Source: Methanocalculus taiwanensis (GTDB taxonomy: Archaea > Halobacteriota > Methanomicrobia > Methanomicrobiales > Methanocorpusculaceae). From it: a DNA stretch of 64,000 nucleotides. The translations under genes were made by a program, and so were the position numbers. Position 1 is the stretch's first letter. Every line of letters starts with the position of its first letter. Location of the stretch: the NCBI RefSeq assembly GCF_024372745.1, contig NZ_VOTZ01000001.1, positions 62,001 through 126,000 on the forward strand, read 5' to 3'. The notes beneath the pieces are model-generated. The model did not search any database. It worked only from the letters and a program-made list of their open reading frames with translations, and was not told the origin of the DNA. Below are positions 32,390-52,735 of this stretch, one piece after another.

Positions 32390-32435
32390 ACACCGGAGAG
32401 ACAATCCAGATTTAGAATCAAGAGGGGTTGAACGG

Positions 32436-33839: not shown

Positions 33840-35396
33840 ATGAACCATAACGGAAACCATATCGAATCCCGGCTCTGGGCAGCAGCCGATGAGCTGCGTG
33901 CCAACTCCAAGCTGAAATCGTCCGAATACTCTGTTCCTGTTCTCGGGCTCGTCTTCCTCCGGTATGCCGATCACCGGTTCCAGGAGGCAGCAGCGAGGAT
34001 CGAGGGCGAAGGGAGCGGAAGCAGGAGGAGAAAGATCGGTCCTGACGATTACAAGGCAGAGGGTGTCCTCTACCTGCCTGAGGAGGCACGATTCAGCACC
34101 CTGATGCGGATTACGGAGGGCTCCAATATCGGAGAAGCAATCAACGAGGCGATGCAGGCAATTGAGATTTGGAACCCGGATCTGAAGGGAGTGCTCCCCC
34201 GGAACTACAAGCGCTTTGAGAATGCCCTGCTGATGGAACTCCTCAAGACGATGAACTCGGTTCCGATGGATATAGAGGGTGATGCTTTTGGGAGGATCTA
34301 TGAGTACTTCCTCGGCAATTTTGCAAGGGCAGAAGGGCAGAAGGGAGGGGAATTCTTCACCCCGCTTGCACTTGTCCGGCTGATCGTTGCAATCATCGAG
34401 CCGTTCCATGGGAGAATCTATGATCCCGCCTGCGGATCCGGCGGCATGTTCGTCCAGAGTGCCCGGTTTGTCGAGGAGCACCGGAATAATCCGGGTACCG
34501 AGCTGAGTATCTTCGGGCAGGAGAAGGTCGAGGAGACCGTCCGGCTTGGGAAGATGAACCTCGCCGTCCACGGGCTTTCAGGGGATATCCGCGAGGGGAA
34601 CGCCTACTATGAGGATCTCCACAAATCACCCGGAAGATTTGATTTCGTGATGGCAAATCCCCCCTTCAATGTGGACCGGGTGGATAAGGAGCGGTTGAAG
34701 GATGATCCCCGGTTCCCCTTCGGGCTCCCCCGTGTTGATAACGGCAACTACCTCTGGATACAGATCTTCTATAGTGCACTCAACGAGAACGGGCGGGCGG
34801 GCTTTGTGATGGCGAACTCCGCATCCGACGCCCGCAGTTCCGAGTGCGATATCCGGCGGCAGATCATCGCCGACCGTGCCGTCGATGTGATGGTCGCCGT
34901 CGGCTCGAACTTCTTCTATACCGTCACCCTTCCCTGCACCCTCTGGTTCTTTGACAAGGCAAAACGGAAGACCGACCGGGCAGATCAGATCCTCTTCATC
35001 GATGCACGGCATATCTACACCCAGGTCGACCGTGCCCACCGTGACTGGACACCTACCCAGATCGAGTTCCTCGCCAACATCGCCCGCCTCTACCGGGGCG
35101 AGGCGGCAGAGAACCTCCATGAGAGTGCGGAGCTGATGGCTGAGCACTTCCCGGACGGAACCTACATCGATATCCCCGGCCTCTGCAAGGTGGCAACCAT
35201 CGGGGAGGTGGAGGCACAGGGCTTCAGCCTCAATCCCGGCCGGTATGTCGGTGTAAAGGCACGGGAAGAGGATGACTTCGACTTCAGGGAGCGGCTTGAG
35301 GAGCTGAACGAGGAGCTGGAACTGCTCAACCTAGAGGCGAGGGAACTGGAGCAGCGGATCGCGGAGAATGTGGGGAAGCTGCTGGAGGGGGAGTGA
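33840..35396 (+). CDS. hsdM: Type I restriction-modification methyltransferase subunit
   Basis: This N6-adenine methyltransferase of a type I system has 518 residues from ATG 33840 ([13 protein letters not shown]). The upstream 81 codons of open frame lack family character and reach into the repeats. An N-terminal helical domain (about 1-140) is followed by the SAM-binding motif [10 protein letters not shown] (195-204) and catalytic NPPF (273-276). With HsdS it methylates the recognition sequence; with HsdR the complex cuts unmodified DNA. The stop overlaps the hsdS start by one base. GC content and codon use match the organism's core genes, unlike the hsdS specificity regions. Confidence 0.93.
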
Positions 35397-36670
35397 TGGG
35401 GGAATGTCCAATTGGTTGGAAAAGGGTTCCAATTATTGATCTATGTGCAAAGCACACAGATTGCGTCAATCGCACAGCACCAATTGTAGATTATGAAACA
35501 CCATATAAAATGATCAGAACCTCAAATATAAAGAATGGTTTTATTGATTGCGAAAATGTTCGTTATGTAACCGAGGAAATTTTCAAGAAGTGGACACGTA
35601 GATTAATCCCAAAAATGGGTGATATTATCTTAACTCGTGAAGCACCTCTTGGAGATGTGGGGAAAATACGGACAGAAGATAGTATTTTTCTCGGACAAAG
35701 ACTTTACCACTTTCGCGTTAATCCAAATTATCTCAATGAAGATTTTTTACTATATTCCCTTTTAGCTGATGATTTGCAGGGACAAATCCAAGGTTTTGGC
35801 TCTGGTGCAACCGTTGAACATATGCGTTTAGCAGATATTCCTAATCTGACAATTAATATACCTCCTATAAAGGTACAGAACAAGATCGCCACCATCCTCT
35901 CCGCCTATGATGACCTCATCGAGAACAATACCCGGCGCATCAAAATCCTTGAGGAGATGGCGCAGAACCTCTACCGCGAGTGGTTCGTCAAATTCCGCTT
36001 CCCCGGCCACGAGCACGCCCGGTTTGTGGACTCGCCTCTGGGGCAGATTCCGGAGGGGTGGGAGGTGAAGAGCATGTTAGATATCGTTGAGGTTCGACCA
36101 CGAATTCCTGTTCCCAAATCGGAAGAAATTATTTTTGTTCCGATGGGAAGCCTTGCAGAAAATTCAATGTTAATTGAAGGTTTTGAGATTCGAGACAAAC
36201 CAAGTGGAGCCCGCTTCCAAAATGGCGACACCCTTTTTGCGAGAATAACTCCCTGTCTTGAAAATGGTAAGACCGGATTTGTTCAATTCTTGCCAACTGA
36301 TGATACTATAGCTTGTGGATCAACAGAATTCATCGTTCTCCGTTCTAAAACGGCCTGTCCTGAGTACGTATATCTAATGTCAAGAAGTGATACTTTCCGA
36401 GATCATGCAATCAAGAGTATGACTGGAGCAACAGGGCGTCAGAGAGTTACAGAAAAATGCTTTGAGCAGTATACATTGGCTCAGCCCCCTGAATCTGTTC
36501 TGAAGCAATTTCAGGACATTGTTCAACCACAATTCAACTTGATTTATTCATTAAATAGAGAGAATCAAAACCTCCGCACCACCCGTGACCTCCTTCTCCC
36601 AAAGCTTATCTCCGGTGAGGTGGATGTCTCAGATCTGAATATCAGAATCCCCGAGGCTGCCATGACATGA
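35396..36670 (+). CDS. hsdS: Type I restriction-modification specificity subunit
   Basis: About 424 residues with two target-recognition domains. TRD1 covers about residues 1-160 and TRD2 about 220-385. Each is followed by a conserved helical spacer (PPIKVQNKIATILSAYDDLI, and LRTTRDLLLPKLISGEVDV at the end). It decides the DNA sequence recognised by the HsdMS complex. The two TRDs are written in AT-rich sequence, while the central spacer (35880-36070) and the 3' end are GC-rich like hsdM, showing exchange of recognition domains. ATG 35396 overlaps the hsdM stop; a GTG three bases earlier is also possible. Confidence 0.9.
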   Translation: MGECPIGWKRVPIIDLCAKHTDCVNRTAPIVDYETPYKMIRTSNIKNGFIDCENVRYVTEEIFKKWTRRLIPKMGDIILTREAPLGDVGKIRTEDSIFLGQRLYHFRVNPNYLNEDFLLYSLLADDLQGQIQGFGSGATVEHMRLADIPNLTINIPPIKVQNKIATILSAYDDLIENNTRRIKILEEMAQNLYREWFVKFRFPGHEHARFVDSPLGQIPEGWEVKSMLDIVEVRPRIPVPKSEEIIFVPMGSLAENSMLIEGFEIRDKPSGARFQNGDTLFARITPCLENGKTGFVQFLPTDDTIACGSTEFIVLRSKTACPEYVYLMSRSDTFRDHAIKSMTGATGRQRVTEKCFEQYTLAQPPESVLKQFQDIVQPQFNLIYSLNRENQNLRTTRDLLLPKLISGEVDVSDLNIRIPEAAMT

Positions 36671-38436
36671 CCACCCCCGCCGATCTCACCATCCTCCTCC
36701 AGGAGGGCGAAGGCGTCACGCTCGAGTACAAGGAGCGAGTAAACGACTCCTTCGCCCGTGAGCTGGTCGCATTTGCCAATACCGCCGGGGGGCGTATCCT
36801 CCTCGGTGTGCGGGATGACGGGACCGTGAAGGGTTTTCCTGATACCAATGACCTCCGTGCCAGAATTCAGGATATCGCCCGGAAATGCGATCCCCCGGTG
36901 AAGATTGTGCTTGAGCGGATCGGCGAGGTGACGGTGGTGACGGTCCGGGAGAGTACTGAAAAGCCGGTCCAGTGCAGTGACGGCTTCTTCTGGCGGCTTG
37001 GGGCAGTCTCGCAGAAGCTCTCCAGAAATGAGATCCGGGATCTCTTCCAGCAGGAGGGGGCGATCCGGTTCGATCATGCGATAAACACCCGGTTCTCCTA
37101 TCCGGAAGATTTTGATACCGATAAATTCAGGAACTGGCTTGGAAAGAGCAGCATCTACCGGGACGGATCGGTCGAGGATATCCTCGTCAATATCGAGGCG
37201 GCAGAACGGTCCGGCGGGAGGTTGCTCTTCAGGAACGCCGGTGTCCTCTTCTTTGCAAAAGATCCCCGGCGGTTCTTCAACCAGGCATACATCACCTGCC
37301 TCCTCTTCAAAGGAACCGTGAAAGTCCATATCCTCGACCGGAAGGACTTCGACGGCGGCATCATCGCGGATATCGAGGATGCACTCCGGTTCATCGAACG
37401 AAACACACGGACCGCCTACCGGATCGAGAAACTCCAAAGGGAGGATATCCCCGAATACCCGATGGCAGCACTCCGGGAGGCGATCACAAACGCGGTCATG
37501 CACCGGGACTGGTTCATCGAAGGTGCAAATGTCTTTGTCGAGATCTTCAGTGACAGAATCGAAGTCTCAAGCCCCGGCGGGCTCCCAAAAGGGATGCAGG
37601 TTTCCGATCTCGGCAATAAGAGTGTCCGGAGAAACCCGCTCATCGCGGATCTCCTTCACCGGATTGCCTATATCGAAAAGGCCGGGACAGGAATCAAGCG
37701 GATGCGGGATGGTGCAACATCGCTTGGCTATCCTGCGCCTGAATTCACATCGGGGAGCTTTTTCTCTGCGATATTCTCTCCAATGCCGATTGGCGATAAG
37801 GAAAAGACCGGTGAGGAAACACGCAGGCACCCCGCAAGTACCGCGCAGGTACCCCGCAAGTCACCCCACAAGTACCCCACAAGTACCCCACAAGTTCTCA
37901 GCCTGTTACATTGTGCATTAGATGATTCTTCAGCTTCTGAACTACAAACAAAACTCAATTTGAATGATCGTGTTCATTTTCTCAAGGACTATCTCAAACC
38001 AGCTCTTGAGCAAGGTCTGATCGAACGAACAATTCCCGATAAACCACGCAGCCCCAAGCAACGGTACCACACTACAGCCACCGGACGGGCTCTTATCGGA
38101 GTGGACCATGAGGAGAAGAGCGGGGAGAAAACACACAACTACCCCGCAAGTTACCCCGCAAGCACCCCACAAGTACCCCACAAGTACCCCACAAGTACCC
38201 CACAAGTTCTCAGCCTGTTACAGTGTGCATTAGATGATGTTTCAGCATCTGAACTTCAAATCAAACTAAATTTGAATGACCGCGTCCATTTTCTCAAGGA
38301 ATTTCTAAAACCAGCTCTTGAAAACGGTCTGATCGAACGAACAATCCCAGATAAACCACGCAGCCCGAAACAACGGTACCGCACCACCGCTGCCGGACGT
38401 GCACTTATCGAAGCAGCTCAGGAGGAGGAAAGTTGA
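36667..38436 (+). CDS. AlbA_2/Schlafen-like ATP-binding protein inside the type I operon
   Basis: A 589-residue protein. The N-terminal AlbA_2 (Schlafen-type) domain (about 10-120) contains EGVTLEYKERVND and FANTAGGRILLGV. A GHKL ATPase-like domain follows (about 250-375) with LREAITNAVMHRDW and EKAGTGIKRM. Then come two tandem copies of a module: a Thr/Pro repeat linker (TPQVPHKYPTS, 11 residues) and a winged-helix-like domain (SASELQTKLNLNDRVHFLKD...). It is probably a nucleic-acid-binding regulator or accessory factor of the restriction system; this is inference from its place between hsdS (ATGA overlap) and hsdR. The linkers are built from an 11-nt DNA repeat that also occurs in the non-coding array at 51.8-52.7 kb. 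Confidence 0.8.
   Translation: MTTPADLTILLQEGEGVTLEYKERVNDSFARELVAFANTAGGRILLGVRDDGTVKGFPDTNDLRARIQDIARKCDPPVKIVLERIGEVTVVTVRESTEKPVQCSDGFFWRLGAVSQKLSRNEIRDLFQQEGAIRFDHAINTRFSYPEDFDTDKFRNWLGKSSIYRDGSVEDILVNIEAAERSGGRLLFRNAGVLFFAKDPRRFFNQAYITCLLFKGTVKVHILDRKDFDGGIIADIEDALRFIERNTRTAYRIEKLQREDIPEYPMAALREAITNAVMHRDWFIEGANVFVEIFSDRIEVSSPGGLPKGMQVSDLGNKSVRRNPLIADLLHRIAYIEKAGTGIKRMRDGATSLGYPAPEFTSGSFFSAIFSPMPIGDKEKTGEETRRHPASTAQVPRKSPHKYPTSTPQVLSLLHCALDDSSASELQTKLNLNDRVHFLKDYLKPALEQGLIERTIPDKPRSPKQRYHTTATGRALIGVDHEEKSGEKTHNYPASYPASTPQVPHKYPTSTPQVLSLLQCALDDVSASELQIKLNLNDRVHFLKEFLKPALENGLIERTIPDKPRSPKQRYRTTAAGRALIEAAQEEES
37827..37896. repeat. 11-nt iterations inside the AlbA_2 gene, set 1
   Basis: About six tandem copies of GTACCCC(A/G)CAA and variants. 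Because 11 is not a multiple of three, the translation cycles through all frames and gives an 11-residue repeat. Confidence 0.8.
38139..38207. repeat. 11-nt iterations inside the AlbA_2 gene, set 2
   Basis: A second tract of the same 11-nt unit, preceding the second copy of the winged-helix-like module. The linker plus domain was duplicated as one block. Confidence 0.8.
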
Positions 38437-41400
38437 CACCGGCAGGGTATACAGAGGATGCCCTCGTTGAGCAGCCCGCCATTGCAGTCTTCAGGGAGCT
38501 TGGCTGGGAGGCGATCAATGCCTATGATGAGTTTGATCATGGCGTGAGCACCCTCAGCCGGGAGACGAAATCTGAAGTCATTCTGAAGACATATCTCCAC
38601 AATTCCCTGCTCCGGATCAACCCTGATGCCCCACTTGAAGCGATCCATGAGGCAATTGCCATCCTCACCCAGGATCGCTCCCGGATGAGCATGGCTGCCG
38701 CAAACCGCGAGATCTATTACCTGCTGAAGAACGGTATCAGGGTGCCGGTGGCTGATCCGGAGAGTGGGGGAGAGACGATTGAGCTTGTCCGGGTCATCGA
38801 CTGGGAGACAGTTTCAAATAATCACTTCCTCCTCTGTTCCCAGTTCTGGGTCACCGGGGAGATGCATACCCGCCGGGCCGATCTGGTGGGATTCGTCAAC
38901 GGTCTTCCTTTCCTTCTGGTCGAGCTGAAAGCCGCCCACCGCAGACTTGAGACGGGGTTCACCAGCAATATCCGTGATTACAAAGACACCATCCCTCAGC
39001 TCTTCTGGCCAAATGCGATGATCATCGTCTCAAACGGAAGCCAGAGCAGGGTCGGCAGCGTCACCGCAGGGTGGGAGCACTTTGCCGAATGGAAGAAGGT
39101 GGGGAGCGAGAAAGAGCCGGGGCGGATCTCACTTGAGACGATGCTTCATGGGATCTGTGAACCCGCCCGGCTCCTTGATATTGTCGAGAACTTCATCCTC
39201 TTTCAGGAGATAACAGGCGGACTTATCAAGCTGGTTGCAAAGAACCACCAGTACCTGGGTGTCAACAATGCAATCGATGCCCTCACCGACATCCGGGAGC
39301 GGGATGGAAAGCTCGGTGTCTTCTGGCACACTCAGGGGAGCGGCAAGAGCGTCTCGATGATCTTCTTCTCACAGAAGGTGCTCCGCAAAGTCCCCGGTAA
39401 CTGGACATTTGTCATCATCACCGACCGGCAGGAGCTTGATAATCAGATCTATGGGAATTTCGTATCAGCAGGGGTTGTGACCGAAAGCAGAGCCCAGGCT
39501 GGTAGCAGCCGCCATCTCCGCCAGCTGCTCACCGAGGATCACCGGTACGTCTTCAGCCTCATTCACAAGTTCAGGACCGAAAAAGGTGAGAAACATCCGG
39601 TACTCTCTGAACGGGGTGATATCATCGTCATCACCGATGAAGCACACCGGAGCCAGTACGACACCCTTGCCATGAATATGCGGACTGCTCTTCCGAATGC
39701 AGGTTTCCTCGCCTTCACCGGCACCCCGTTAATCGTCACCGAAGAGAAGACCCGCCAGGTCTTTGGCGAGTATATCAGCGTCTATGACTTCAAACAGTCA
39801 GTGGCTGATGGTGCGACCGTTCCGCTCTATTATGAGAACCGTATCCCGCAGCTCCAGCTTACAAACGAGAACCTGAATGTGGATATGGCAGAGCTCCTCG
39901 AAGATGTCGAGCTTGATGAGGCACAGGAGAAGAAGCTTGAGCGTGAGTTTGCACGGGAATACCACCTGATCACCCGGGATGACAGGCTCGAGGCAATTGC
40001 ACGCGATCTCGTCGATCATTTCACCGGACGGGGATTCCGGGGCAAGGCGATGATGATCGCAATCGACAAGGCGACCGCCATCCGGATGCATGACAAGGTC
40101 AGGAGATACTGGGATACAAAGATCAGTGAACTTGTTGCAGAATGTAACAGAGCTGGGGGTGATGATCGAAAAGAGCTCCTTGAGACGATCGCCTGGATGA
40201 GAGAGACGGATATGGCGGTCGTCGTCTCGCAGGGTCAGAACGAGATCGCGGATATGGCAGAGAAAGGGCTTGATATCCGCCCCCACCGGAAACGGATGGT
40301 TGAGGAAGATCTTGAGAAACGCTTCAAGCGTTCAGACGATCCCTTCCGGCTGGTCTTTGTCTGTGCAATGTGGATTACCGGCTTTGATGTGCCGAGCTGC
40401 TCCACCCTGTACCTTGACAAGCCGATGCGGAACCACACCCTGATGCAGACGATTGCACGGGCAAACCGGGTCTATCCCGGAAAGGTAAGCGGGTTAATTG
40501 TCGATTATGTCGGGGTGTTTCGGAATCTTGAGAAGGCTCTTGCCATCTATGGTGCAGGTGGAGAGGGCGATACCCCGGTAGAAGATAAAGCTGCCCTCGT
40601 TGCCGCCCTTGAGCATGCTCTCTCTGAAACCCGGAGCCTCTGCGAGGATCATGGTGTCGATATTGATGCGATACAGGCTGCCGAAGGCTTTGGCAGAATC
40701 GCCCTGAAGGATCAGGCGGTGGAAGCCCTCCTTGTTTCAGAAGAGGTCAAACGCCGTTTCCTTGACTCTGCAAATACCGTTCAGCGGCTATATAAAGCGG
40801 TGCTCCCCGATCCGGATGCCAGACGATTCGCCGCCCAGGTCTCACCGATCCGTTTCATCGCAGACGCAATCCGCTCGCTCATCCCGCCTGTTGATATCTC
40901 GAATGTGATGGAGCAGGTGGAGGGGCTGCTTGACCGCTCCATAGCAACCGATGGCTACTTCATACGGGAGGCAGAGCAGCCATATCAGGATGATCACCTG
41001 ATAGACATTAGTAATGTTGACTTTGATCTGCTCACACAACAGTTTAAAAAAGGGAAGAAACGGACGATAAACGAGAAGCTGAAGGGACAGGTTGTTCAGA
41101 AGATGATGAAGATGGTCCGGCTCAATCGCACCCGGATGAATTATCTTGAGCAGTTCCAGAAGATGATCGAGGAATACAATTCCGGGAGATTAAGCGATGA
41201 TGAGCTCTTCCACCAGCTCGTTGCCTTCACGAAGAGCCTGAATGAAGAGGAACAGCGGACGGTCAGCGAGCAGCTGGATGAAGAAGAGCTTGCCATCTTT
41301 GACCTGCTGACAAAGCCGATGATCGAGCTCTCAGCTGCCGACCGAAAGAGGGTAAAGGCAACCGCCAGAAAACTGCTTGCCACCCTGAAGGAAGAGAAGC

Positions 41401-41588
41401 TGGTCCTTGACTGGCGTAAACGCCAACAGACGCTATCAGATGTCCGGCGGACCATCAGCAAGATGCTGGATGAGTGCCTGCCGGATGCCTATACCCCGGA
41501 ACTCTATGAAGAGAAGACGATCGCAGTCTTCCAGCATGTCTATGATGCGTATTATGGGGCCGGGCAGAGTGTTTATGCGGGGGGGTAG
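38433..41588 (+). CDS. hsdR: Type I restriction enzyme motor/nuclease subunit
   Basis: This 1051-residue translocase-nuclease of the type I system has an N-terminal PD-(D/E)xK nuclease core with Asp150 (RRADLVGF) and Glu164-x-Lys166 (LLVELKAAH). The SF2 helicase domain has Walker A HTQGSGKSVS (299-308), DEAH (ITDEAHRSQY), TGTPL, and late motifs WITGFDVPSC and QTIARANRVYPGK. A C-terminal helical region binds HsdM. It pulls DNA past the bound complex and cuts at a distance. The start is a TTG overlapping the previous stop (TTGA), with AGGAGG just upstream. It is full length with no visible defect, so the system looks functional. Confidence 0.93.
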   Translation: MTPAGYTEDALVEQPAIAVFRELGWEAINAYDEFDHGVSTLSRETKSEVILKTYLHNSLLRINPDAPLEAIHEAIAILTQDRSRMSMAAANREIYYLLKNGIRVPVADPESGGETIELVRVIDWETVSNNHFLLCSQFWVTGEMHTRRADLVGFVNGLPFLLVELKAAHRRLETGFTSNIRDYKDTIPQLFWPNAMIIVSNGSQSRVGSVTAGWEHFAEWKKVGSEKEPGRISLETMLHGICEPARLLDIVENFILFQEITGGLIKLVAKNHQYLGVNNAIDALTDIRERDGKLGVFWHTQGSGKSVSMIFFSQKVLRKVPGNWTFVIITDRQELDNQIYGNFVSAGVVTESRAQAGSSRHLRQLLTEDHRYVFSLIHKFRTEKGEKHPVLSERGDIIVITDEAHRSQYDTLAMNMRTALPNAGFLAFTGTPLIVTEEKTRQVFGEYISVYDFKQSVADGATVPLYYENRIPQLQLTNENLNVDMAELLEDVELDEAQEKKLEREFAREYHLITRDDRLEAIARDLVDHFTGRGFRGKAMMIAIDKATAIRMHDKVRRYWDTKISELVAECNRAGGDDRKELLETIAWMRETDMAVVVSQGQNEIADMAEKGLDIRPHRKRMVEEDLEKRFKRSDDPFRLVFVCAMWITGFDVPSCSTLYLDKPMRNHTLMQTIARANRVYPGKVSGLIVDYVGVFRNLEKALAIYGAGGEGDTPVEDKAALVAALEHALSETRSLCEDHGVDIDAIQAAEGFGRIALKDQAVEALLVSEEVKRRFLDSANTVQRLYKAVLPDPDARRFAAQVSPIRFIADAIRSLIPPVDISNVMEQVEGLLDRSIATDGYFIREAEQPYQDDHLIDISNVDFDLLTQQFKKGKKRTINEKLKGQVVQKMMKMVRLNRTRMNYLEQFQKMIEEYNSGRLSDDELFHQLVAFTKSLNEEEQRTVSEQLDEEELAIFDLLTKPMIELSAADRKRVKATARKLLATLKEEKLVLDWRKRQQTLSDVRRTISKMLDECLPDAYTPELYEEKTIAVFQHVYDAYYGAGQSVYAGG

Positions 41589-41716: not shown

Positions 41717-44700
41717 TCATTTATCATCGCCCATTTCTTCTGAGTCGATTATTGCTCTTAGATCAGAAATATGCACTTCAGTAAAGTGGATACTCTTCTG
41801 TTTGCGTGCTAAAGTAACCTCCAATCTACATCCTTTCATATTAAGAAATAAATCCTTTAATTGCATCTTTGATTGATTTGCATGTCTAAACATCGCACTG
41901 TGGTTAGGACAAAGAGCGAGATAATTTTCTTTATGATGTTTCTTTAAATCTCCCAAAAATTGAACTGTTTCAAAATAATATTGGTTATCATCCAATTTGA
42001 ATGGAAGTTTACTTTTACAAATCTGGCAAATCATATCACCATCTATATTGGTATAATGATCAAGGAGGTAGGGTTTTGCTTCTTCCTTAACGGGAGGTAG
42101 GTTCACAGATACAGAGCGTTCTCGGGTTTCTTTTTCTTTTTCAGGAGCGTTTTTACTTTTATTTTTAACTAGTTCATATCGCCTTTCCGGATTGGGAGAA
42201 CTTTTCGTTGGCAATTCGACAATTTCTTCCCCTTCCTCATCTTCAAAGGACTGAGATGACCGTTCACTAATTGCTTCATCGACATTTTGCGACAAATCCT
42301 CGGTATAATCTTTAGAGTTAACCTGACTTGATAAAATTTTGTTGTCCGAACTCTCGATTATAGTCTCTTTCTCAAAATATTCAATTGGAATGAGAGTGGT
42401 TTCATGTTCTCCACTAATGAGATCTTTTTCTCTTAACCAATCTTTGACCTCGTCAGGACATCTCCAATTATTCGCAGATAATTTTTGTATGCAATAATTT
42501 TTGTCCTCATTAAGTACAAGTTCAATGAATTCAGTTAGATCTCCAGCGGTTTTATTTTCAATTTCACCTAAAATGATTAGCTCTCGTGCTATTGCTCTGG
42601 AAACGCCAGGTTTAATATGTTTATCAGGTTGATTTAAAATCAATAATGTTTTAGATTTTAGATCCCAGTATGCAGAATGCTGCTTAGTTATCTTATTGGA
42701 TTTCAGTTGATATTGTATCTCTAAGTCAGATATTTCGAATTCCTGTGTTTCAAGAAGTAATTCAACTGCCTTATTGTCGACCAATTTTTTATATATCTCA
42801 TCATAATATTTTTCAAAAAGCCAGGCGAGAATCAGAATTTTGGCAGATGGTGTAAGGTAGTGGGGCTTTGAACAGGGTCCAAGTACATTCTTCCTCACAA
42901 TTGATCGTTTTACCACTTCGGATATGTTCTTAACTTCAAGCGATTTATACAGCAAATCCCAATATGAGCGAGCTTTATCAGAAGGATACCAGACAAAATG
43001 AATCTCAGGACCCTCGAAAATTTCTTTGAGGTCACCATCATCAGGTATATATACCAAATCTGGTGTTTCAAAGGTAGAATTTGTAGTCCAAATCTTTACT
43101 TTTCTTTGAAAGTCATTCCACCAAGAGGGACGTATAGCAAGATTAGAGATTTTCTGTAATTCATTGTAGATCTTAGGTAATAACTCTGGATAATCTTGAC
43201 TTTGACTAATCATTTCTTCCTGAAGGCGCAACAATCTATTGGCAAAACATTCGGAATCAACATCGCTCTTTACTTCAAGTATGTTTACAAAAAAGTCTTT
43301 AAATTTCGGATAGTATTTTTGGAGATAATTGTAATCATCCTCAAAAACCTGGCTTCTATCCCTCCATATCACCTGATCCTTCGACACCCATTTCCCATTT
43401 GTATCATTCAATGGAATGAAAAATAGTTTTTCACTTTCGAAACGTTTTTTCAAATCAGGAGGGAAAGAGGGAATACTTGATAAACGCCTGTAAATCTTTT
43501 CGATTACTTCTATAGATATATCACTTCGAGTGGATAAAGAACTTAAATAGTCCACAAGATCTACAGATGTTATTTCTGTTCTTACCCCAAGAAGTTTAAA
43601 AACTTTTTGAAGATTATCACTAATTTGCCCCTCATAGTATGGAACAGAATACTCAAAAATCTCAATTATTCCTGCGGATTGAATAAAAACATCGTTTGGA
43701 CGATAAAATCCCTTTGTTGTTGGGAGCCAACTCTTCTTTTTGAGTTCTTGAAGCAATTCTGAATTAAAAGGCTTAGGAATACAAGAGTAATAAAAATAAT
43801 AAATTATTAATTCTTGCCAGGGATATTTTTGGACAAAGGAAGATGTTGTAGCTGGCTTTTGATTCTTAAGCCAAATTAATAAACTTTTTGTAAAAATTTC
43901 TTTTTGGTCATTATTTAAAAATGTGAAATATTTAAGCATTTCAAAAGGTTTCCAATTAATAATTTTTTTTCCACGTGTTGATCTCACTTTTTCCGCACAT
44001 TCAGCTTCATAATCATAACCTAATGGTACTAGTTGATCCTTTTCCAAGGAGAGCGTTACCATCAAAGGAAGGGGATAGAAGTTCACTCCAATATTCTGGA
44101 AAAAATGAGTGATTGAATCAGAAGTATCGTTCGTTTTCGCAAAAGTTACATAATAATCTGAAAGTATCTCCAGATTATCCCTTTCTTCATAAGTAGTAAA
44201 AATATTCTGCCATCCGGCCTCTGTATCTAATTTCATGGGTGGTACTATTGCCTGTAATCCAGGCTGTGATTTCACCATCGATAACAATTTTTTTTCGCCA
44301 TTAAAAATTATTATTGGGATATTCCGACTGATTAAAAGTGAACCAAGATTTTCAGAAAAATAAAGAGAAGCGTTGATTATTTCATCATCACTCATCCCTT
44401 CGAAATGATTATTTACCCAATTTAACGAAATTTCGTTTATCAATTCCTCATTAAGGGTTTGAATCCCCAATGTATCCTCTATCCAGCGGCAAGTTTCTGT
44501 CTCCTGTAGAATTTCATTAAAAAAATCAGCACTTAAAAATCTTAGATCTATATGAATAAAATCAGGGATATCATTAATAAACGACTTTAATTCTTCATTA
44601 CAGGGATAATAAATTGCTTCTTCCTCTTTACTAAACCATTGCAACCCATCATGGGTATCCACTGGAATAATCGGGCAATGAGATACATCGATCTTATGTG

Positions 44701-46138
44701 AAGCAAAATATTGATAGCATCTCAATAGCCAGTTAAAATCATGATTCTTTATCCAATCCACATCTCTGAAGAATTCTTGAATAAACTCATCTGGGTAAGA
44801 TTCTACCCCAAGTGCTTTTAGCTGTTTGTTATACACCTGGATACCTTCAATAACAACACGGTGTGTATACAATGACTTGGGCAAATCTGTTTCGAATAAA
44901 AGAGAACGTAAGTCCTTAGATATAAGAAAAGCTTCATTTGGCTTGACCCTTTTTCCACCAGGCTCAGTGAGGATAATTGCCATACCCTTGAGAGCGTCAA
45001 TGATTGACTCTATTGCAGGTTGAAAAAAGTCATCAGAAGTATTGAGGGGTATAAATTTGTACAAAGATTTGGAATATTCATCCATATCAAGAAACTTATC
45101 GAATGCCTTCACAAAGACCTTCGGGACGCAACTAATGAGCCATTTGTTCCATGGGTCGTCAACATGAACATCCTCTCTTGATGAGATGAGTAAAAAGTCA
45201 GCATTTAATAGGAATGGAACTTCAGGAATTTTTTTAACTGGGAGATAGGCAAAAAATTTCCCATCTCCAGTAGAGTCATCATCAAGAGGAAATGCAATAG
45301 ATATGCTACTCTCATGGCAATTGCTACGTTCTTCAGAAGTAATCTCAATAGGTTTATCAAAAGAATCTGTACAAAGAAGGAATCTCTTTATACTCGAATT
45401 TTTCTTCCCATCGTTACTAATCTCTTGAATTGTACTAATATAATAATCATCAATTACCTCTTTTGTTAAAGAAAAGATGGTTTCGCCGTCAAGCACAACC
45501 GATATATTTTTTAATTTATTTAAAAAAAGAATGCTATTTGGATCAAATTGAAGAAGGTTCTCTTTCATGTCATCATATGAAAGATCTGTTTTGTCGAGTG
45601 GCAGTATGATTGTTGTAAGAGATGGATCAATAGTTTCTGGAATACAATCAACCCAATATGGTAAAACCATACCTATCGTGCCATCATTTTTATTGGCGGG
45701 TAAACAAAAGTGATAGCCATTTGAAAAAATATGTGGATTGTCAGTAGCACGAAAAACAGATTTAAACCCTATTCCTTTCTCTCCAATAAAGGCACGGCTA
45801 TTTCTCTTTGGAGAGACACCCGCTCTGCATATAGACTTTACATCCTCCTTGGTAAATCCAGTTTCATTTTTTTCTATTATGAATGCACCCTTAGATCCAA
45901 GTGAAGATGTGGGATCATTTTTAACAAGTTTGAAGCAGAGTGAGGGATTATTGGATTGATAATTTGCATCATCAGCATTTTGAATGATTTCAAATAAAAA
46001 ATGAAAACCACTCTTAAAAATACGAGTAGATATTTCTTCTAACATATTATTTAAGTCCTCTATGGTATCTGGATCAGCCTTTCTTCTATTTCTTATCTCT
46101 TGAATATGCTCATATTGCTCTGAGAACACCAATATCAC
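41717..46138 (-). CDS. Sacsin-like HSP90-type ATPase, large
   Basis: A 1473-residue protein. The N-terminal GHKL/HSP90-type ATP-binding domain of the sacsin/Nov kind is clear: FHFLFEIIQNADDANY (about 45-60) and FIGEKGIGFKSVF (G box, about 115-127). A long region without recognised domains follows. The C-terminal part has a charged linker (about 1290-1370), then a possible zinc module with CxxC (MICQICKSKL) and CPNH (LALCPNHSAMF), like HNH or DUF3883-associated tails. Such proteins occur in defence islands next to helicases; the mechanism is unknown. It is co-transcribed after the HEPN-SNF2 gene (45-base gap). The start is non-ATG: GTG 46138, with GGAGG directly before it. Base composition is much richer in A+T than the surroundings, a sign of transfer. 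Confidence 0.75.
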   Translation of the reverse strand: MILVFSEQYEHIQEIRNRRKADPDTIEDLNNMLEEISTRIFKSGFHFLFEIIQNADDANYQSNNPSLCFKLVKNDPTSSLGSKGAFIIEKNETGFTKEDVKSICRAGVSPKRNSRAFIGEKGIGFKSVFRATDNPHIFSNGYHFCLPANKNDGTIGMVLPYWVDCIPETIDPSLTTIILPLDKTDLSYDDMKENLLQFDPNSILFLNKLKNISVVLDGETIFSLTKEVIDDYYISTIQEISNDGKKNSSIKRFLLCTDSFDKPIEITSEERSNCHESSISIAFPLDDDSTGDGKFFAYLPVKKIPEVPFLLNADFLLISSREDVHVDDPWNKWLISCVPKVFVKAFDKFLDMDEYSKSLYKFIPLNTSDDFFQPAIESIIDALKGMAIILTEPGGKRVKPNEAFLISKDLRSLLFETDLPKSLYTHRVVIEGIQVYNKQLKALGVESYPDEFIQEFFRDVDWIKNHDFNWLLRCYQYFASHKIDVSHCPIIPVDTHDGLQWFSKEEEAIYYPCNEELKSFINDIPDFIHIDLRFLSADFFNEILQETETCRWIEDTLGIQTLNEELINEISLNWVNNHFEGMSDDEIINASLYFSENLGSLLISRNIPIIIFNGEKKLLSMVKSQPGLQAIVPPMKLDTEAGWQNIFTTYEERDNLEILSDYYVTFAKTNDTSDSITHFFQNIGVNFYPLPLMVTLSLEKDQLVPLGYDYEAECAEKVRSTRGKKIINWKPFEMLKYFTFLNNDQKEIFTKSLLIWLKNQKPATTSSFVQKYPWQELIIYYFYYSCIPKPFNSELLQELKKKSWLPTTKGFYRPNDVFIQSAGIIEIFEYSVPYYEGQISDNLQKVFKLLGVRTEITSVDLVDYLSSLSTRSDISIEVIEKIYRRLSSIPSFPPDLKKRFESEKLFFIPLNDTNGKWVSKDQVIWRDRSQVFEDDYNYLQKYYPKFKDFFVNILEVKSDVDSECFANRLLRLQEEMISQSQDYPELLPKIYNELQKISNLAIRPSWWNDFQRKVKIWTTNSTFETPDLVYIPDDGDLKEIFEGPEIHFVWYPSDKARSYWDLLYKSLEVKNISEVVKRSIVRKNVLGPCSKPHYLTPSAKILILAWLFEKYYDEIYKKLVDNKAVELLLETQEFEISDLEIQYQLKSNKITKQHSAYWDLKSKTLLILNQPDKHIKPGVSRAIARELIILGEIENKTAGDLTEFIELVLNEDKNYCIQKLSANNWRCPDEVKDWLREKDLISGEHETTLIPIEYFEKETIIESSDNKILSSQVNSKDYTEDLSQNVDEAISERSSQSFEDEEGEEIVELPTKSSPNPERRYELVKNKSKNAPEKEKETRERSVSVNLPPVKEEAKPYLLDHYTNIDGDMICQICKSKLPFKLDDNQYYFETVQFLGDLKKHHKENYLALCPNHSAMFRHANQSKMQLKDLFLNMKGCRLEVTLARKQKSIHFTEVHISDLRAIIDSEEMGDDK

Positions 46139-46183
46139 ATCCTCCAGAAAAAATCAAGTGATTTCATTAGAGATACCACACAG

Positions 46184-49100
46184 CTACAAATTAATTAACA
46201 ATCCAAACACCACAGGCTCAGCGGTGATATCTCCACTATCCCTATCTTTTTCAAGATCCTTCATTCGCAGCTCAAAGTCCTGTTCAGCTCTGGCCAGCTC
46301 ACTCGTCTTCATGATCTGAATTTTATTATTCGCAGTTCCTTTCAACTGGTTTTCTATTACCTGACGGCGGGACTTGTGACTGGCTTTTAGACTTTGAATT
46401 CGATATTCAACCTGCTGCCGGTTTTCATCAATATGTTTGGCGCGAGCTGCAATCCATTTTGTATAATGTCGTTTTTCCAGCACATCGAAAACCGATGAAT
46501 CAATATGATCGTTAAAGTCTGAACCTTCGGCAGTTTGAAGAAGGGAGAGTATTTTTTCCTCAAGTATTGGATCTGTTGCAACCGGAACAATCACATCATC
46601 AGGTTTGACACCCTGTTTTTTCCAGTGATAGACACCAAATGGATATTGACCCGGAGACAATTCCGTGTCCTGAATTGTAAGAGCGGTATAAACAACCTGT
46701 TGATGTTCCTGATGAGATGCTGCTTGTTTGATCAGGGGATGAAGGACTGAGAGGTACGTGATTTTTTCATCCTCTGTTGCAGCCTCCTGATCAAATGTTA
46801 CTGGAAATACAGGATTGTCTCCCTTTAACCATTTCTCCCACATTCGAAAGATTGGATCAGATTTATGAGGTATTCGGATATAATCCTGGAGTAGGGCTGC
46901 TCTTCCATCTTTATTCACTCTTAACGTTTTTACTGCCTTTTCTCCGAGCAGATACTCACCTTCTCCACCAAGACGCTCCTTGAGATAGCATGTAACAGAT
47001 CGTTGAATTGCTTCAGCAGAGAGCCAATAACTCTCAGCAGACTCAATATCCTGAAGCCAGGTGCTTTTTGGAATATTAAGACCAATAAGCTCAGCCTCTT
47101 TGGATTCTAACTCCTGTTCCTCCTGAATACGACGAACCATATTGTCTGAAAGTTGACGAAGCCTCCTTTCCATTTCCTCATTAGTTAAAGTATATCTTTC
47201 AGCTATTTGGTGGATCTCTCTCGTAATATCTCCTAAAATCTCCTCACTTCCACCAATTGAATGTTCAAAAACACCTATTCGTAACAGACACCGATTGTAG
47301 ATTTCAGCCTCAATTGTTCCAGAAGTAATAAAGTTAACAATTGCCACCGATTCGCTCTTTTGTCCATATCGGTCAATCCTTCCGATTCTTTGTTCAATCC
47401 GCATTGGATTCCAGGGAAGATCGTAGTTTATCAAAAAGTCGCAGAATTGAAAGTCAAGACCTTCACAACCAACTTCAGAGGATAGCAAAATGTCAATTGC
47501 CAATGGATCTTCCTTTGGCAATCCAAATCTATGTCTGATTTCTGCACGCTCGTCATCGGGAACATCACCATGAATCAATCCATAGCGCAGAGTCGTGTTT
47601 TCGACATTTTTCGCAAGATATGCAAGAGTATGACGAAATGTGCTAAATAAAAGAATCTTATTGTTTGGCAACGTATTTTTATCTTCTATTACCTTTATGA
47701 AGGCCTCCAGTTTTGGATCATAGGGATCTAATTCTCGAGCTTGAACGATGAGATTCTGGATTTCAGAACGAAATTGAGATACAAGCTCAGGATCAGGATC
47801 AGAATCACCATCAATTGCTTCAGCATATTCAATCTTGTTGAGACGTCCATTGAGCATATCCTCAAAAAGTGGTACCAAACCGTAAAAGCAACTGGCAACC
47901 TGACGCCGAATCATCGTCATCATGAATGAAATATTTGAATTATCATGGCTATACGCTAACATTCTTTGAATAAGATCAAGTAGAGTATCATGCAACTCTT
48001 TCTGAGAAGGCGTACATTCAATTTCGATTGTTTCAGGTTTTCTTACAGTAAATTCGCCAATATCACGCCTGCGGGTTCGATTGATCAAAGAACTGAATGT
48101 ATACAATTCTTCAATAGAGCGTATTAATTGAACCCGATCAGCATCAGTGAGGTTTTCTTCGTGTAGATTATCATATATCTTCTGGAATTCAGATGATTCC
48201 CGGATAAACTGTGAACCCCAGGCGGTTTGAGCCACTTGATTTAAACAGGCAAGAGCATTTTTATTCCAATCATTCTCCCCTCTCCGACAGTGCTGAGCAG
48301 CTTCGTTAATATAACGATTTGGCTCTGCCATCATGTCAAAACTCGATGAATCGATGATCAAATCTGGACGCAGGACATTAAGAAGAGTGTTCAAATCCTT
48401 CCTCCCTAATTGAACGGGAGTCGCTGTGAGAAAAATTACCGCTTCTGCGTTATCACAAAAATACCGAATTCCCTGATGCAAGCATGTATCTGAATTTCGA
48501 ATATGGTGAGCTTCATCTACAATAACCAGATCAAATTTTGGTGGTTGTGAAAGAGAGAATAACCCTTCTCTGTTTCTCTTATTTTGATTAGAGTTGCCAA
48601 ATAATAATTTTTTATCAAAGAGAGAGAAGGGCATAATTACTTTAGAATACTGTTTTGGCCATTCATCATCCAGAGTCAATTCATGAAGACAATGTCTAAG
48701 TAAGTTGCTATCAAGAGAGGTAAAGGATTCATCAAATCTCTTCATCTCATAATACCATTTCTTTTCAGTAACAAGAGTCCGGGGGCAGATGATTAAAATT
48801 GATGAGATATCCATTCTTGCCTGTAGCTCTTTAATAATAAGCCCCGCCTCGATGGTCTTTCCCACGCCAACCTCATCTGCGATTAATAAACGAGGTCGAT
48901 CAGATCGAATCAACTTCAATACCGGGCGGTATTGATACGGGACAAACTGGATTCTACCCTGACGCAACGAAAAAAGGTTGTTAATTGAAGGAGAGAGTAT
49001 TTGAAGATTGGTCAAATAAGATTTTACTTTCTCTGCATCAAGAATTTCCTGAGTCGTTTCAGACTCAGAAACCCGTTGTAACTGGCTCTCATAATAGGTA

Positions 49101-49738
49101 ACCGTTCGAGAATCCTGAAATACCTTATATCTACATTCACCATAGCCCGGAATGACTTCTAGAATTGGACATTTAATTTCTGTATTTGAACGAAGGGAGA
49201 CAAGATCCCCTCGCTCAAACTTTGGCTTATTACTATCTACATCCGCTTTGAGAGCAGTAGCATTTGACACTAAATCAGTAGTATTATTCAGTTCTGAGCG
49301 TTTTTCGAAGGCTATAGAGATAATTGATTGTTTTTGTTCATTTATCTTTTCAAGAGAGTCTTCCGATGCACCAATTAATTTGAGGAGCCTCTCCAGTGTA
49401 TCGGCATCACGGAATAAATCCTCTTTTGGTATTTCTTCTGAGGAGAGATGGGCCCATTTATTTCGGACGGTTTGTAGTTCTTTTACCCAAGAGCGTCCTT
49501 CTGGGGGAAAGGAATACAAATTTGATATATCATACCAATTTCTATCTAAGATCCTTAGTAGTGCGGCAAAATCAAGTTGTTTAAGTGAATTATAACCCCT
49601 TTCTTCAACAAATCTCTGCTGTTGAAAGCTTAGATTGTCAAATACATTTTCATTCCACCAGTCAGTTGAAAACTCAGGGAAACTACTCTCTAAAAAAGAA
49701 GCTAATTCCACTGTTGCAATCTGAAAGAGAGCCTGCAA
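46184..49738 (-). CDS. HEPN (Swt1-type) - SNF2 helicase fusion
   Basis: An 1184-residue protein. The N-terminal 130 residues form a Swt1-type HEPN domain with the R-x4-H motif RNKWAH (Arg92, His97), the usual HEPN RNase active-site pattern. Next is a beta-rich insert (about 170-220). A SNF2/SF2 helicase follows: Walker A DEVGVGKTIEAG (291-295 core), DEAHH (408-412), LTATPVQLG, and the C-lobe motif NPMRIEQRIGRIDRYGQ. A long coiled C-terminal tail ends the protein. It is probably a DNA translocase coupled to an RNA-cutting HEPN domain. It is the first gene of the two-gene unit with the sacsin-like ATPase. The start is TTG 49738 after a GGGGG stretch; a TATA-like TTATAA lies near 49760. Confidence 0.85.
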   Translation of the reverse strand: MQALFQIATVELASFLESSFPEFSTDWWNENVFDNLSFQQQRFVEERGYNSLKQLDFAALLRILDRNWYDISNLYSFPPEGRSWVKELQTVRNKWAHLSSEEIPKEDLFRDADTLERLLKLIGASEDSLEKINEQKQSIISIAFEKRSELNNTTDLVSNATALKADVDSNKPKFERGDLVSLRSNTEIKCPILEVIPGYGECRYKVFQDSRTVTYYESQLQRVSESETTQEILDAEKVKSYLTNLQILSPSINNLFSLRQGRIQFVPYQYRPVLKLIRSDRPRLLIADEVGVGKTIEAGLIIKELQARMDISSILIICPRTLVTEKKWYYEMKRFDESFTSLDSNLLRHCLHELTLDDEWPKQYSKVIMPFSLFDKKLLFGNSNQNKRNREGLFSLSQPPKFDLVIVDEAHHIRNSDTCLHQGIRYFCDNAEAVIFLTATPVQLGRKDLNTLLNVLRPDLIIDSSSFDMMAEPNRYINEAAQHCRRGENDWNKNALACLNQVAQTAWGSQFIRESSEFQKIYDNLHEENLTDADRVQLIRSIEELYTFSSLINRTRRRDIGEFTVRKPETIEIECTPSQKELHDTLLDLIQRMLAYSHDNSNISFMMTMIRRQVASCFYGLVPLFEDMLNGRLNKIEYAEAIDGDSDPDPELVSQFRSEIQNLIVQARELDPYDPKLEAFIKVIEDKNTLPNNKILLFSTFRHTLAYLAKNVENTTLRYGLIHGDVPDDERAEIRHRFGLPKEDPLAIDILLSSEVGCEGLDFQFCDFLINYDLPWNPMRIEQRIGRIDRYGQKSESVAIVNFITSGTIEAEIYNRCLLRIGVFEHSIGGSEEILGDITREIHQIAERYTLTNEEMERRLRQLSDNMVRRIQEEQELESKEAELIGLNIPKSTWLQDIESAESYWLSAEAIQRSVTCYLKERLGGEGEYLLGEKAVKTLRVNKDGRAALLQDYIRIPHKSDPIFRMWEKWLKGDNPVFPVTFDQEAATEDEKITYLSVLHPLIKQAASHQEHQQVVYTALTIQDTELSPGQYPFGVYHWKKQGVKPDDVIVPVATDPILEEKILSLLQTAEGSDFNDHIDSSVFDVLEKRHYTKWIAARAKHIDENRQQVEYRIQSLKASHKSRRQVIENQLKGTANNKIQIMKTSELARAEQDFELRMKDLEKDRDSGDITAEPVVFGLLINL

Positions 49739-50131
49739 TTATTATCCCCCAAGCGACATTATAAGTTCAATTTTTTTTATAAAAAAACTAAACTGAATTT
49801 CTATTAACAGATGCAGAATCTACCCCTTCAAAGAAAAATCTTCCGTTATTACATTTGAACTCAATAACTCCTTAACCACGACATGGTAATTCAGGTGAGA
49901 ATTCTTTTTCATTCAATATCTGTGATAAATGGCCATATCCATCCACATCAACCTGCGTGCTACCTACCCCGCAAGTACTCTCTACCGCACACCTCTATCA
50001 CCCGAAGCGACCATACTCAGCCCAGGCAGGTTATATCAATTAACGGACAGCTATGAGCGGATAATCGCTCTTCGATACCGGGATTCAGAGCAGGGCGGTC
50101 CGCGAAGGGAGTTGATTTGAATTGTTGAGCT

Positions 50132-50320
50132 GTTTCTTAGTTGTCGGTTAGTTCACACCTATTGCCTTTCATACCCCAAATTGGTCAATATGCCTGCGAT
50201 TTCCAATTTTAAGCAGTTTCTTAGTTATCGGTTGGTTCACACCTAATGCCATTCATACCCAAAAATGGTCAATATGCCTGCGGATTCTAATTTCAAGCAG
50301 TTTCTTAGTTGTCGGTTCGT
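50132..50320. repeat. Three-unit 84-bp tandem repeat
   Basis: GTTTCTTAGTTGTCGGTT or close variants begin at 50132, 50216 and 50300, exactly 84 bases apart. Each of the first two is followed by GGTTCACACC-like sequence and GGTCAATATGCCTGCG. It is non-coding. The rest of the 783-base gap (49739-50521) is AT-rich promoter sequence near the helicase gene, one stray copy of the GTACCCCGCAA-like unit near 49965, and the small frame noted below. Confidence 0.7.
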
Positions 50321-50357
50321 TTCCAGGCAGTTGAACCGAAGTGAGAAGTTCCCGTAA

Positions 50358-50521: not shown

Positions 50522-51697
50522 TCACCAAACACCAATCTGCTCCGCGAGCGGCTGAATCCTGGATGGACTGATATTGAGCATCCGCCCGGCCTCACGCATC
50601 AGCAGGCTCTGATCAAAGGTGCTTCGGACGACCGCCTCGGTAAACCGCCTGCCATACCGTACCGGTAGCGTCTTAAAAAAATTGCCGCCACCCTGTTCTT
50701 CCCTTCTCCGCTGCCATCGCTCCTCCTGACTTCGATAATAATCGACAAACACTGGCCATTCGATCAGGCCAAGATCAAGTGCACGGCGGGCGATCACAAC
50801 GGTACTGACCCGGAAGAATGTTGCAGATGTGGAGATCGTATCTTCAGGAGAACTCTCTTTCTGCCATATCTCCTCCCACGTATGCAGGAAAGGCCCCTCA
50901 GGGACGAGTACTTCAGCGGCAACGGCATTACAGATCTTCTCAATATCTTTTCCTTCACCATTCACCGGTCGATCCAGCGACGTATTAGAGATACCACTCT
51001 TTCCAATCCAGAGATGGGTCATCTCATGTACGAGCGTAAAGATCTGTGCCGCTTTTGCATCGTTTCCATTGATGAAGACGAGCGGGGCGATCTCATCGCA
51101 GATGGCAAAACCACGGAACTCATGGATCTCAAGACTGCGATGTGTGTTATTGGCAACGATTCCACTCCGCATCACCCAGATACCGGCAGCCTCCGCCCTC
51201 CTGACAAGGAAATCATAGAACTGCTCCCAGCTTCGCACCTGTGTACGGTCTGCAAGCGTGAGGGAAAGGGTCGTTGTCATATCTGCGGCTATCTCCCTGG
51301 GATCAGCATCAGGATCAAAACGCCCTATGAAAGGCAGCTTCTCCTCACCCTGTTCGATGAGGTAATCCCTGTACCAGTCATGCTTATAGAGGGTGTCGGC
51401 AAGCAGATCGAAGAGATCTGCACTGACTTCACTGATCGGATGATCACCTATCCTGCGAAGATCAGGGATGGGAAGCTTCTCCTCGGGCGGGTGCGAAAGG
51501 AAAAGATATCCGAAAGGAATGTGAAGCTTTTTCGCAATCTCCTGTGCCTGTCTGAAGGTTGGCTTCTCCATCCCCTCTTCCCAGCGGAGAATCCTCTCTG
51601 GTGTGACACTGGCACTCTTTGCCAGCCTGTCTGGACCAATACGTGCACGTTCACGAGCCCAGCGGAGAACCCCGGGATTGATGAGGGCAACCGTCAT
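50522..51697 (-). CDS. XRE-type regulator with ImmA/IrrE metallopeptidase domain
   Basis: About 391 residues. The N-terminal helix-turn-helix of the Cro/CI kind (about 5-65) contains PDRLAKSASVTPERILRWEE. A central ImmA/IrrE zinc peptidase domain has HExxH in LVHEMTHLWIG. A C-terminal helical part (VSTVVIARRALDLG) follows. Such proteins repress mobile-element or toxin genes and cleave repressors on induction; in archaea they often sit upstream of a PIN toxin. No toxin gene follows here. I prefer ATG 51697 (MTVALINPGVL) over GTG 51715. The 177-bp repeat array begins about 70 bases upstream of its start and is a possible binding platform. Confidence 0.85.
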   Translation of the reverse strand: MTVALINPGVLRWARERARIGPDRLAKSASVTPERILRWEEGMEKPTFRQAQEIAKKLHIPFGYLFLSHPPEEKLPIPDLRRIGDHPISEVSADLFDLLADTLYKHDWYRDYLIEQGEEKLPFIGRFDPDADPREIAADMTTTLSLTLADRTQVRSWEQFYDFLVRRAEAAGIWVMRSGIVANNTHRSLEIHEFRGFAICDEIAPLVFINGNDAKAAQIFTLVHEMTHLWIGKSGISNTSLDRPVNGEGKDIEKICNAVAAEVLVPEGPFLHTWEEIWQKESSPEDTISTSATFFRVSTVVIARRALDLGLIEWPVFVDYYRSQEERWQRRREEQGGGNFFKTLPVRYGRRFTEAVVRSTFDQSLLMREAGRMLNISPSRIQPLAEQIGVW

Positions 51698-51782
51698 GGT
51701 AGTCTGCACTTCCACATCATCGTTCTATTCCAAGTCTTCTTGTTTGAGAGCTGATAAAGGTAGTTTCTTCACTTTTGGGTAC

Positions 51783-52735
51783 ACCCGCCCCGCAAGTTAC
51801 CCCGCAACCCAGCCCAACACCACCATGCATGCACCATGCAAGCACCGTGCAAGTACCGTGCAAGTACCGCGCAGGCTGAGCCGGTAAAAGAGTCCACCAT
51901 ATTCCAATTTTAAAGCCACTTAAAGCCAATTGAGCCAGGATAAACGCTCCTTTCATCACCACCTAACAGGAGGGAAAACCACAAATTACACGATAATTTT
52001 AGCGAAAGCACCATGCAAGTAGCATGCAAGCACCGTGCAAGTACCGCGCAGGCTGAGACGGTAAAAGAGTCCACCATATTCCAATTTTAAAGCCACTTAA
52101 AGCCAATTGAGCCAGGATAAACGCTCCTTTCATCACCACCTAACAGGAGGGAAAACCACAAACTACACTATAATTTTAGCGAAAGCACCATGCAAGTAGC
52201 ATGCAAGCACCGCGCAAGTACCGCGCAAGCTGAGACGGTAAAAGAAACCTCCATATTCCAATTTTAAAGCCCCCTAAAGCCAAATTAACCCATATTCACG
52301 CCACTTTCATCACCACCTAACAGGAGGGAAAACCACAAATTACACGATAATTTTAGCGAAAGCACCATGCAAGTAGCATGCAAGTACCGCGCAGGTACCG
52401 CGCAGGCTGAGCCGGTAAAAGAATCCCCCATATTCCAATTTTAAAGCTTCTTAAAGCCAATTGAACCCGGATTAACGCTCCTTTACCACCACCTAACAGG
52501 AGGGAAAAACCACAAATTACACGATAATTATAGCGCAAGCACCGTGCAGGTACCCCGCAAGTACCCCGCAAGCTGAGCCGGTAAGAGTATCCCCCCTTCT
52601 CCAATTATTGCGACAGTTTAGAGAGAATTGAGCTCACCTAAACCGCCATTTCATCACTACCAGACAGGATGAACACCCCACAAGTACCCCACAAGTACCC
52701 CGCAGGTACCCCGCAAGCTGATCCGCTAAATTCCC
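51783..52735. repeat. Six-unit tandem array of about 177 bp built on 11-nt iterations
   Basis: The marker GCTGAG/GCTGAT occurs at 51875, 52052, 52229, 52406, 52572 and 52717 (steps 177, 177, 177, 166, 145). Each unit has a tract of 11-nt copies (GCACCGTGCAA, GTACCGCGCAA, GTAGCATGCAA, GTACCCCGCAA). It then has a conserved spacer with TAAAGCCA and CACCACCTAACAGGAGGG. Nothing is coding. The rest of the 51698-52948 gap is ordinary AT-rich sequence leading to the AAA ATPase. Confidence 0.85.

Follow-up and report, generated by a model that had tools for sequence, protein, structure and literature searches.

Several described systems share components with the locus analysed here. Tiamat is a single-gene system, RapA recycles RNA polymerase, and animals combine sacsin and HEPN in one polypeptide. 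The helicases DrmD of DISARM, BrxHII of BREX type 3 and HmaA have a RapA-type SNF2 core and C-terminal region, and the RapA architecture of BrxHII has been reported (PMC12839542). GHKL ATPases adjoin SWI2/SNF2 helicases in the mobile, restriction-modification (R-M)-like MORC/paraMORC operons (Iyer 2008, PMC2292703), and a fusion of Swt1-type HEPN to SWI2/SNF2 (WQE_15321) is listed as isolated in the part of the survey considered here (Anantharaman 2013, PMC3710099). In Hachiman HamAB, as described in the part of PMC12278908 drawn on here, a helicase sensor keeps an effector nuclease inactive. The locus that we compare with these systems lies in a stretch of 64,000 nucleotides (the window) from the archaeon Methanocalculus taiwanensis (contig NZ_VOTZ01000001.1, positions 62,001 to 126,000). 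It consists of two minus-strand genes, A followed by B (Table 1), whose existing annotations are 'helicase-related protein' and 'hypothetical protein'. Gene A encodes a HEPN domain fused to a RapA-type SNF2 ATPase, and gene B a sacsin-type ATPase with a divergent middle and a zinc-binding tail. These two orphan annotations describe one near-obligate two-gene unit, conserved in tandem order in bacteria and archaea.

The pairing of A and B is evident from searches in both directions. The B alignment was used to scan the genomes of 84,980 species, one per species, plus relatives, plasmid and virus contigs. Among the tail-bearing B proteins with enough upstream sequence, 49 of 57 are encoded directly downstream of a same-strand SNF2 gene of the A family; the seed alignment was built from paired members, although pairing was not a selection criterion, and related loci are not fully independent. 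In one of the other eight (L010) the SNF2 gene lies 2.2 kb upstream, three are second copies of B (L009, L076 and L077), and four (L008, L019, L032 and L116) are unpaired, the match in L008, from a Proteus plasmid, covering the tail domain only, without the ATPase. The three second copies stand in tandem behind a first B from which their sequences have diverged. This is in contrast to the tail-less, TmtA-like relatives of B, of which only two of 37 adjoin an SNF2 gene. Across 58 distinct paired loci, whose organism names include a dozen or more bacterial phyla plus archaea, the genes overlap by 4 nt in 22, and the gap falls between -100 and +50 in 52. They are 45 nt apart in the window, where a plausible ribosome site, GGAGG, precedes gene B, so that its true start may be two to three codons downstream. 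The reverse search with A covered the window's phylum (394 genomes) and three other groups (385, 395 and 369 genomes), and found B downstream in 15 of 17 SNF2 matches, search seeds being excluded from the count and genomes G050 and G013 being already known from the B search. The exceptions are L163, with transposase genes on the flanks of A, and L168, which ends at a contig edge; one of the 15, L158, has a transposase gene inside B. These transposase genes are IS256-like, the insertion sequence (IS) families having been named by eye, and L158 and L163 are naturally broken copies. The sequence-only reading had proposed from this one locus that the two genes form a pair, and their association is near-obligate both ways. 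The same genome encodes a second, HEPN-less pair (L108), whose SNF2 had at one stage been taken as partnerless; this was rejected, as its divergent B is missed by a single-sequence search and found by profile. The L108 pair is preceded, in the same direction, by genes for a 434-aa protein and an SMC/SbcC-like AAA protein of 1045 aa, possibly a four-gene operon.

The assignment of gene B as a sacsin-type ATPase, made earlier from the translation, holds against profile cut-offs. Its ATP-binding domain scores 58.9 bits on Pfam SACS (cut-off 32.8) and 64.7 bits on NCBIfam P_loop_sacsin (cut-off 50), and the nearest solved match of the protein by profile is the sacsin SRR (5v47, 3.9e-22). The N-box E..QNAxD and the GxxGxGFK motif that typify the sacsin/Hsp90 GHKL ATPases are present in paired B proteins, E50, N54, D57, G119, G122, G124 and K126 being at least 90% conserved in 44 of them. 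The Cys/His tail that had been noticed is also real: among 64 homologous tails C1371 is conserved in 64, C1374 in 63 and C1410 in 63. An AlphaFold2 (AF2) model of residues 1310-1473, with a predicted local distance difference test (pLDDT) score of 94.1, matches the HNH domain of EcoKMcrA (6ghc; Foldseek E=2.2e-4, probability 1.00; profile 3.2e-9), and these matches cover the HNH part of McrA only. The two share the fold and the zinc-ligand site, but the EVHH of McrA aligns with ETVQ in B of the window, where the first catalytic His is replaced, and therefore the tail is probably no nuclease. A clear EAHHI is present in the tail of one unpaired locus, L019. On this modelling and alignment, the tail of B is predicted to be an inactivated McrA-type HNH fold.

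That B might simply be a known protein has to be weighed, as must the corresponding idea for A, namely that the locus is a variant, enlarged by one gene, of DISARM, where A would be DrmD, or of Tiamat, where B would be TmtA. The best PADLOC match of B is indeed TmtA (PDLC03972), at 414 bits over positions 5-1156 of 1302, spanning the sacsin-type ATPase and the middle, and software using only PADLOC profiles could label B as Tiamat. However, 23 of 34 solo TmtA-type relatives end in NOV_C (NOV_C/DUF3883), which is absent from B, and B is nearly always paired with SNF2 whereas the solo types are not. The best PADLOC match of A is DrmD at 373 bits, but on the NCBIfam DrmD model NF038317 A scores 319.8 bits against a cut-off of 610, and its membership of DISARM was rejected on this ground. 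A DISARM operon comprises drmA/B/C and a methylase, and DrmA/B/C gave zero matches among the window neighbour proteins scanned; nor was an HmaB/C or DUF499 partner seen among the window proteins scanned, with HmaA matching A at only 130 bits. Unlike DrmD, BrxHII and HmaA, A has an N-terminal HEPN domain and a sacsin-type ATPase partner. We therefore consider a variant of a named system quite unlikely. The pair falls outside the full definitions of DISARM, Tiamat, RapA and McrA, and the tail provides a simple marker dividing SNF2-dependent sacsin ATPases from Tiamat-type ones.

For gene A, the earlier description of a HEPN domain with an RNKWAH motif fused to a complete SNF2 is confirmed, HEPN_Swt1, SNF2-rel_dom and Helicase_C all scoring above their Pfam cut-offs. 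Relatives that bear HEPN keep R92 in 31 of 32, N93 in 32 of 32 and H97 in 31 of 32, which is the R-N-x3-H motif, and by family and motif this domain is a Swt1-like HEPN and a putative RNase. Of 54 paired relatives, 52-54 retain the motifs of SNF2 lobe 1, with lower counts at E289 (32/54) and H412 (47/54), and 52-54 retain QRIGRIDR of lobe 2. The AF2 model of A is of moderate confidence (mean pLDDT 76.7), and its top Foldseek match is RapA (6bog, E=1.8e-27, 1080 columns), with which it shares the overall fold; RapA is also the best match of a sequence profile of A against the PDB (1.2e-48). By these matches the SNF2 part is RapA-like, with its ATPase motifs intact, and the five strands in the model, taken with the RapA/BrxHII architecture (PMC12839542), suggest the name Tudor-like for residues ~176-223. 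E. coli RapA, although nearest in solved fold and sequence, differs in that A scores only 196.1 bits on NCBIfam NF003426 (cut-off 576), adds HEPN, pairs with B and is sporadic. The likeness to the MORC/paraMORC operons lies in the adjacency of GHKL and SNF2 genes; here the GHKL ATPase is sacsin-type, HEPN is present, and a methylase or nuclease gene is not constant beside the pair. WQE_15321 has the same architecture as A, and the part of PMC3710099 considered here describes neither partner B nor the pairing. That the pair is undescribed, as had been claimed, agrees with our finding no name for it in the catalogues and papers searched: an SNF2 and sacsin-ATPase defence pair is not described in the papers searched by full text, names in subscription papers or DefenseFinder models lying outside this coverage.

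HEPN had been presented as a regular part of the pair. The SNF2 motor is constant, but HEPN is optional, being fused to 32 of the 64 A proteins in the tree, about half. Its absence from the other half of the pairs indicates that only the SNF2 and the sacsin ATPase belong to the invariant core. On the A tree, which was built quickly under LG+G4 and contains some long branches, nine changes of HEPN state are needed, at least seven of them forced by well-supported branches, and these repeated changes make HEPN an exchangeable module. A separate HEPN gene upstream in rhizobia was rejected, the small open reading frame (ORF) there being sigma-factor-like by eye and not HEPN. Such an ORF of ~180 aa lies directly upstream of HEPN-less SNF2 in rhizobia and sphingomonads (L004, L005, L006, L048, L049 and L053), those of L004-L006 being the sigma-factor-like ones. 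The two proteins also diverge at different rates. Of 780 comparisons between pairs, 99% give a lower identity for B than for A, with median identities of 0.344 for the B ATPase domain and 0.350 for the B tail against 0.561 for the A SNF2 core, and the lowest value in the B middle (Table 1); between L074 and L075 the B middle is only 17% identical, the tail 59% and A 71%. The middle varies as a recognition region would be expected to, and as it, rather than the helicase, is the fastest-evolving part, this suggests that B is the sensor.

The best reading of these data is a modular two-gene defence system in which B senses and gates, and A is a DNA motor and, where HEPN is present, an RNase. B would act as an ATP-driven GHKL clamp or switch, its variable middle recognising an invader product or DNA-protein structure, and its dead-HNH zinc tail would dock it on A or on DNA. 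We infer that the tail couples B to A because its presence distinguishes the sacsin ATPases paired with SNF2 from the unpaired ones. Like other RapA/SNF2 proteins, A may move along duplex DNA, which might be foreign DNA under transcription, and may hold its own HEPN RNase inactive until B signals, whereupon the freed HEPN dimer would cleave RNA and the infected cell would be arrested. HEPN-less versions might work through A and B alone, or through a nearby nuclease. This order of events is a hypothesis, for which Hachiman HamAB is a works-like analogy only, with another helicase and another effector, and with no GHKL ATPase reported in the part of PMC12278908 drawn on here. That A and B are the two obligate parts of an anti-invader system that moves horizontally and works by the proposed mechanism has, in our estimate, a probability of about 0.5. 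A defence function in itself, judged from context, is considerably more probable. A bolder formulation seems doubtful to us: that two-gene immunity of a new class is at work here, with a sacsin-type GHKL ATPase that recognises invaders through its hypervariable middle, a RapA-type motor licensed by the dead McrA-type HNH tail to work on foreign DNA or its transcription complexes, and an exchangeable HEPN RNase for the effector, forming a prokaryotic counterpart of the animal sacsin-plus-HEPN combination. The pair nevertheless offers a prokaryotic system for the old question of the joint role of a sacsin-type ATPase and HEPN.

The genomic context of the pair was expected to be a defence island, and this stands in part: the setting is mobile and defence-like, but single-sequence searches find R-M or BREX-type neighbours in only eight of 60 paired loci. 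Two faecal 'Bacteriophage sp.' contigs (L126 and L128) carry a PglZ gene directly upstream of HEPN-SNF2, 2-22 nt apart, attaching the pair to a BREX-like locus, and L127 and L034 have a type III methylase and ResIII helicase directly upstream of A. In the window the type I R-M operon that had been noted as adjoining is present, but it lies on the plus strand, converges with the pair and is not co-transcribed with it. These neighbours, and the RapA architecture shared with BrxHII (PMC12839542), would also suit an accessory to modification-based systems (R-M, BREX), acting as a backup when restriction is disabled. We think this improbable, since neither an R-M nor a BREX gene is found in the examined sequence of 52 of 60 paired loci and the partner system is different each time. 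A DNA-processing or repair machine, made of a RapA-like remodeller and a MutL/MORC-like GHKL ATPase with an occasional HEPN and forming no defence system, is rather unlikely but slightly less so. RapA is the nearest solved relative of A, and two HEPN-less copies adjoin SMC/SbcC-like AAA (L108) or UvrD/PDDEXK (L105) genes, with RNase_H_2-helicase a further DNA-processing neighbour of HEPN-less copies. Housekeeping repair would not typically show a prevalence of ~1% of the genomes sampled, scattered over taxa, carriage on plasmids and on virus-classified contigs, IS-inactivated copies, fast divergence of B and a strongly conserved HEPN motif. The plasmid searches found the same A-B order in Rhizobium, Ensifer and Methanomethylovorans, all without HEPN, and a DNA-level plasmid search with the pair gave no match. 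The pair itself is AT-rich, as had been observed, at 34-40% G+C against 50-55% in most flanks.

Several points weigh against a two-gene defence system as proposed. With single-sequence (phmmer) searches, R-M/BREX-type genes occur in eight of 60 paired loci, nine of 38 solo TmtA-type loci and none of 19 shorter random segments, so that some copies of the pair lie outside defence islands. Neighbour proteins match more PADLOC families than random archaeal-segment proteins do (123 by 143 proteins, compared with 35 by 143), but this counts families, not genes, and the random control is from other taxa. The surroundings of L108 and L105 fit DNA repair too, the correlation between tail and pairing partly reflects shared ancestry, and the assignment of sensor to B and executor to A is one that we infer.

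Table 1. Positions of the two genes, their parts and neighbouring features (window coordinates unless a locus is named).
Feature	Position	Strand	Description and basis
Gene A	46184..49738	-	1184 aa, TTG start; HEPN - Tudor-like - RapA-type SNF2 ATPase; ORF, Pfam, AF2/Foldseek, profile vs PDB
HEPN_Swt1 domain, A residues 7-123	49370..49720	-	Pfam PF18731, 3.7e-17, 63.1 bits (cut-off 27.5)
Putative HEPN RNase motif RNKWAH, A residues 92-97 (R92, N93, H97)	49448..49465	-	Conserved in HEPN-bearing relatives
Tudor-like small beta domain, A residues ~176-223	49070..49213	-	Five strands in AF2 model
SNF2 ATPase lobe 1 (DEVGVGKT, DEAHH), A residues 265-473	48320..48946	-	Pfam SNF2-rel_dom, above cut-off
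Helicase_C lobe 2 (QRIGRIDR), A residues 676-792	47363..47713	-	Pfam 2.3e-19, above cut-off
RapA-like C-terminal region, A residues 870-1184	46187..47131	-	AF2 and Foldseek to RapA
Gene B	41717..46138	-	1473 aa, GTG start; sacsin-type GHKL ATPase - divergent middle - zinc tail; ORF, Pfam SACS, profile search
Sacsin/Hsp90-like ATP-binding domain, B residues 31-145	45704..46048	-	Pfam SACS 8.9e-16
Hypervariable middle, B residues 420-1300	42239..44881	-	Median pairwise identity 0.206
C-terminal zinc domain, B residues 1350-1473	41720..42091	-	AF2, Foldseek and profile to 6ghc
Zn motif CQIC...CPNH (C1371, C1374, C1410, H1413)	41900..42028	-	Conservation in tails
Type I R-M operon	33597-41588	+	Convergent with A-B
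Schlafen-type gene	36667-38436		SLFN_AlbA_2, HATPase_c_4, Fic-like_C
AAA_15/ASCH stretch	30397-32843		Candidate defence module
HTH-M78 peptidase gene	50522-51715	-	Possible regulator; PADLOC 51.7 bits
84-bp tandem repeat	50120-50321		2.4 copies
177-bp tandem repeat	51831-52572		4.2 copies, 11-bp subrepeats
PglZ gene upstream of HEPN-SNF2	L126 6826-9336; L128 2138-4666		Pair attached to BREX-like locus
Second A-B pair	L108 (G000:C7:69000-88900) 5375-16263		HEPN-less
1471-aa protein	L100 12493-16908		Zero Pfam matches

Among the other genes of the window, that for the Schlafen protein with HATPase_c_4 and Fic-like_C domains separates hsdS from hsdR in the type I R-M operon, and a Schlafen-HATPase gene is also found near PglZ and the pair in L126. 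The AAA_15/ASCH stretch, which is a candidate for another defence module, comprises an AAA_15/AAA_21 ATPase (AriA/PDC-M38A-like), an overlapping protein of 232 aa and an ASCH protein (PADLOC PDC-M11B). Upstream of A lies a gene for an HTH and M78 (IrrE-like) peptidase with weak likeness to RmrA. The shorter of the two tandem repeats falls inside the 783-bp region upstream of A, and the longer lies beyond the HTH-M78 peptidase gene. The 1471-aa protein of L100 adjoins the nearest relative of the pair, in genome G050.

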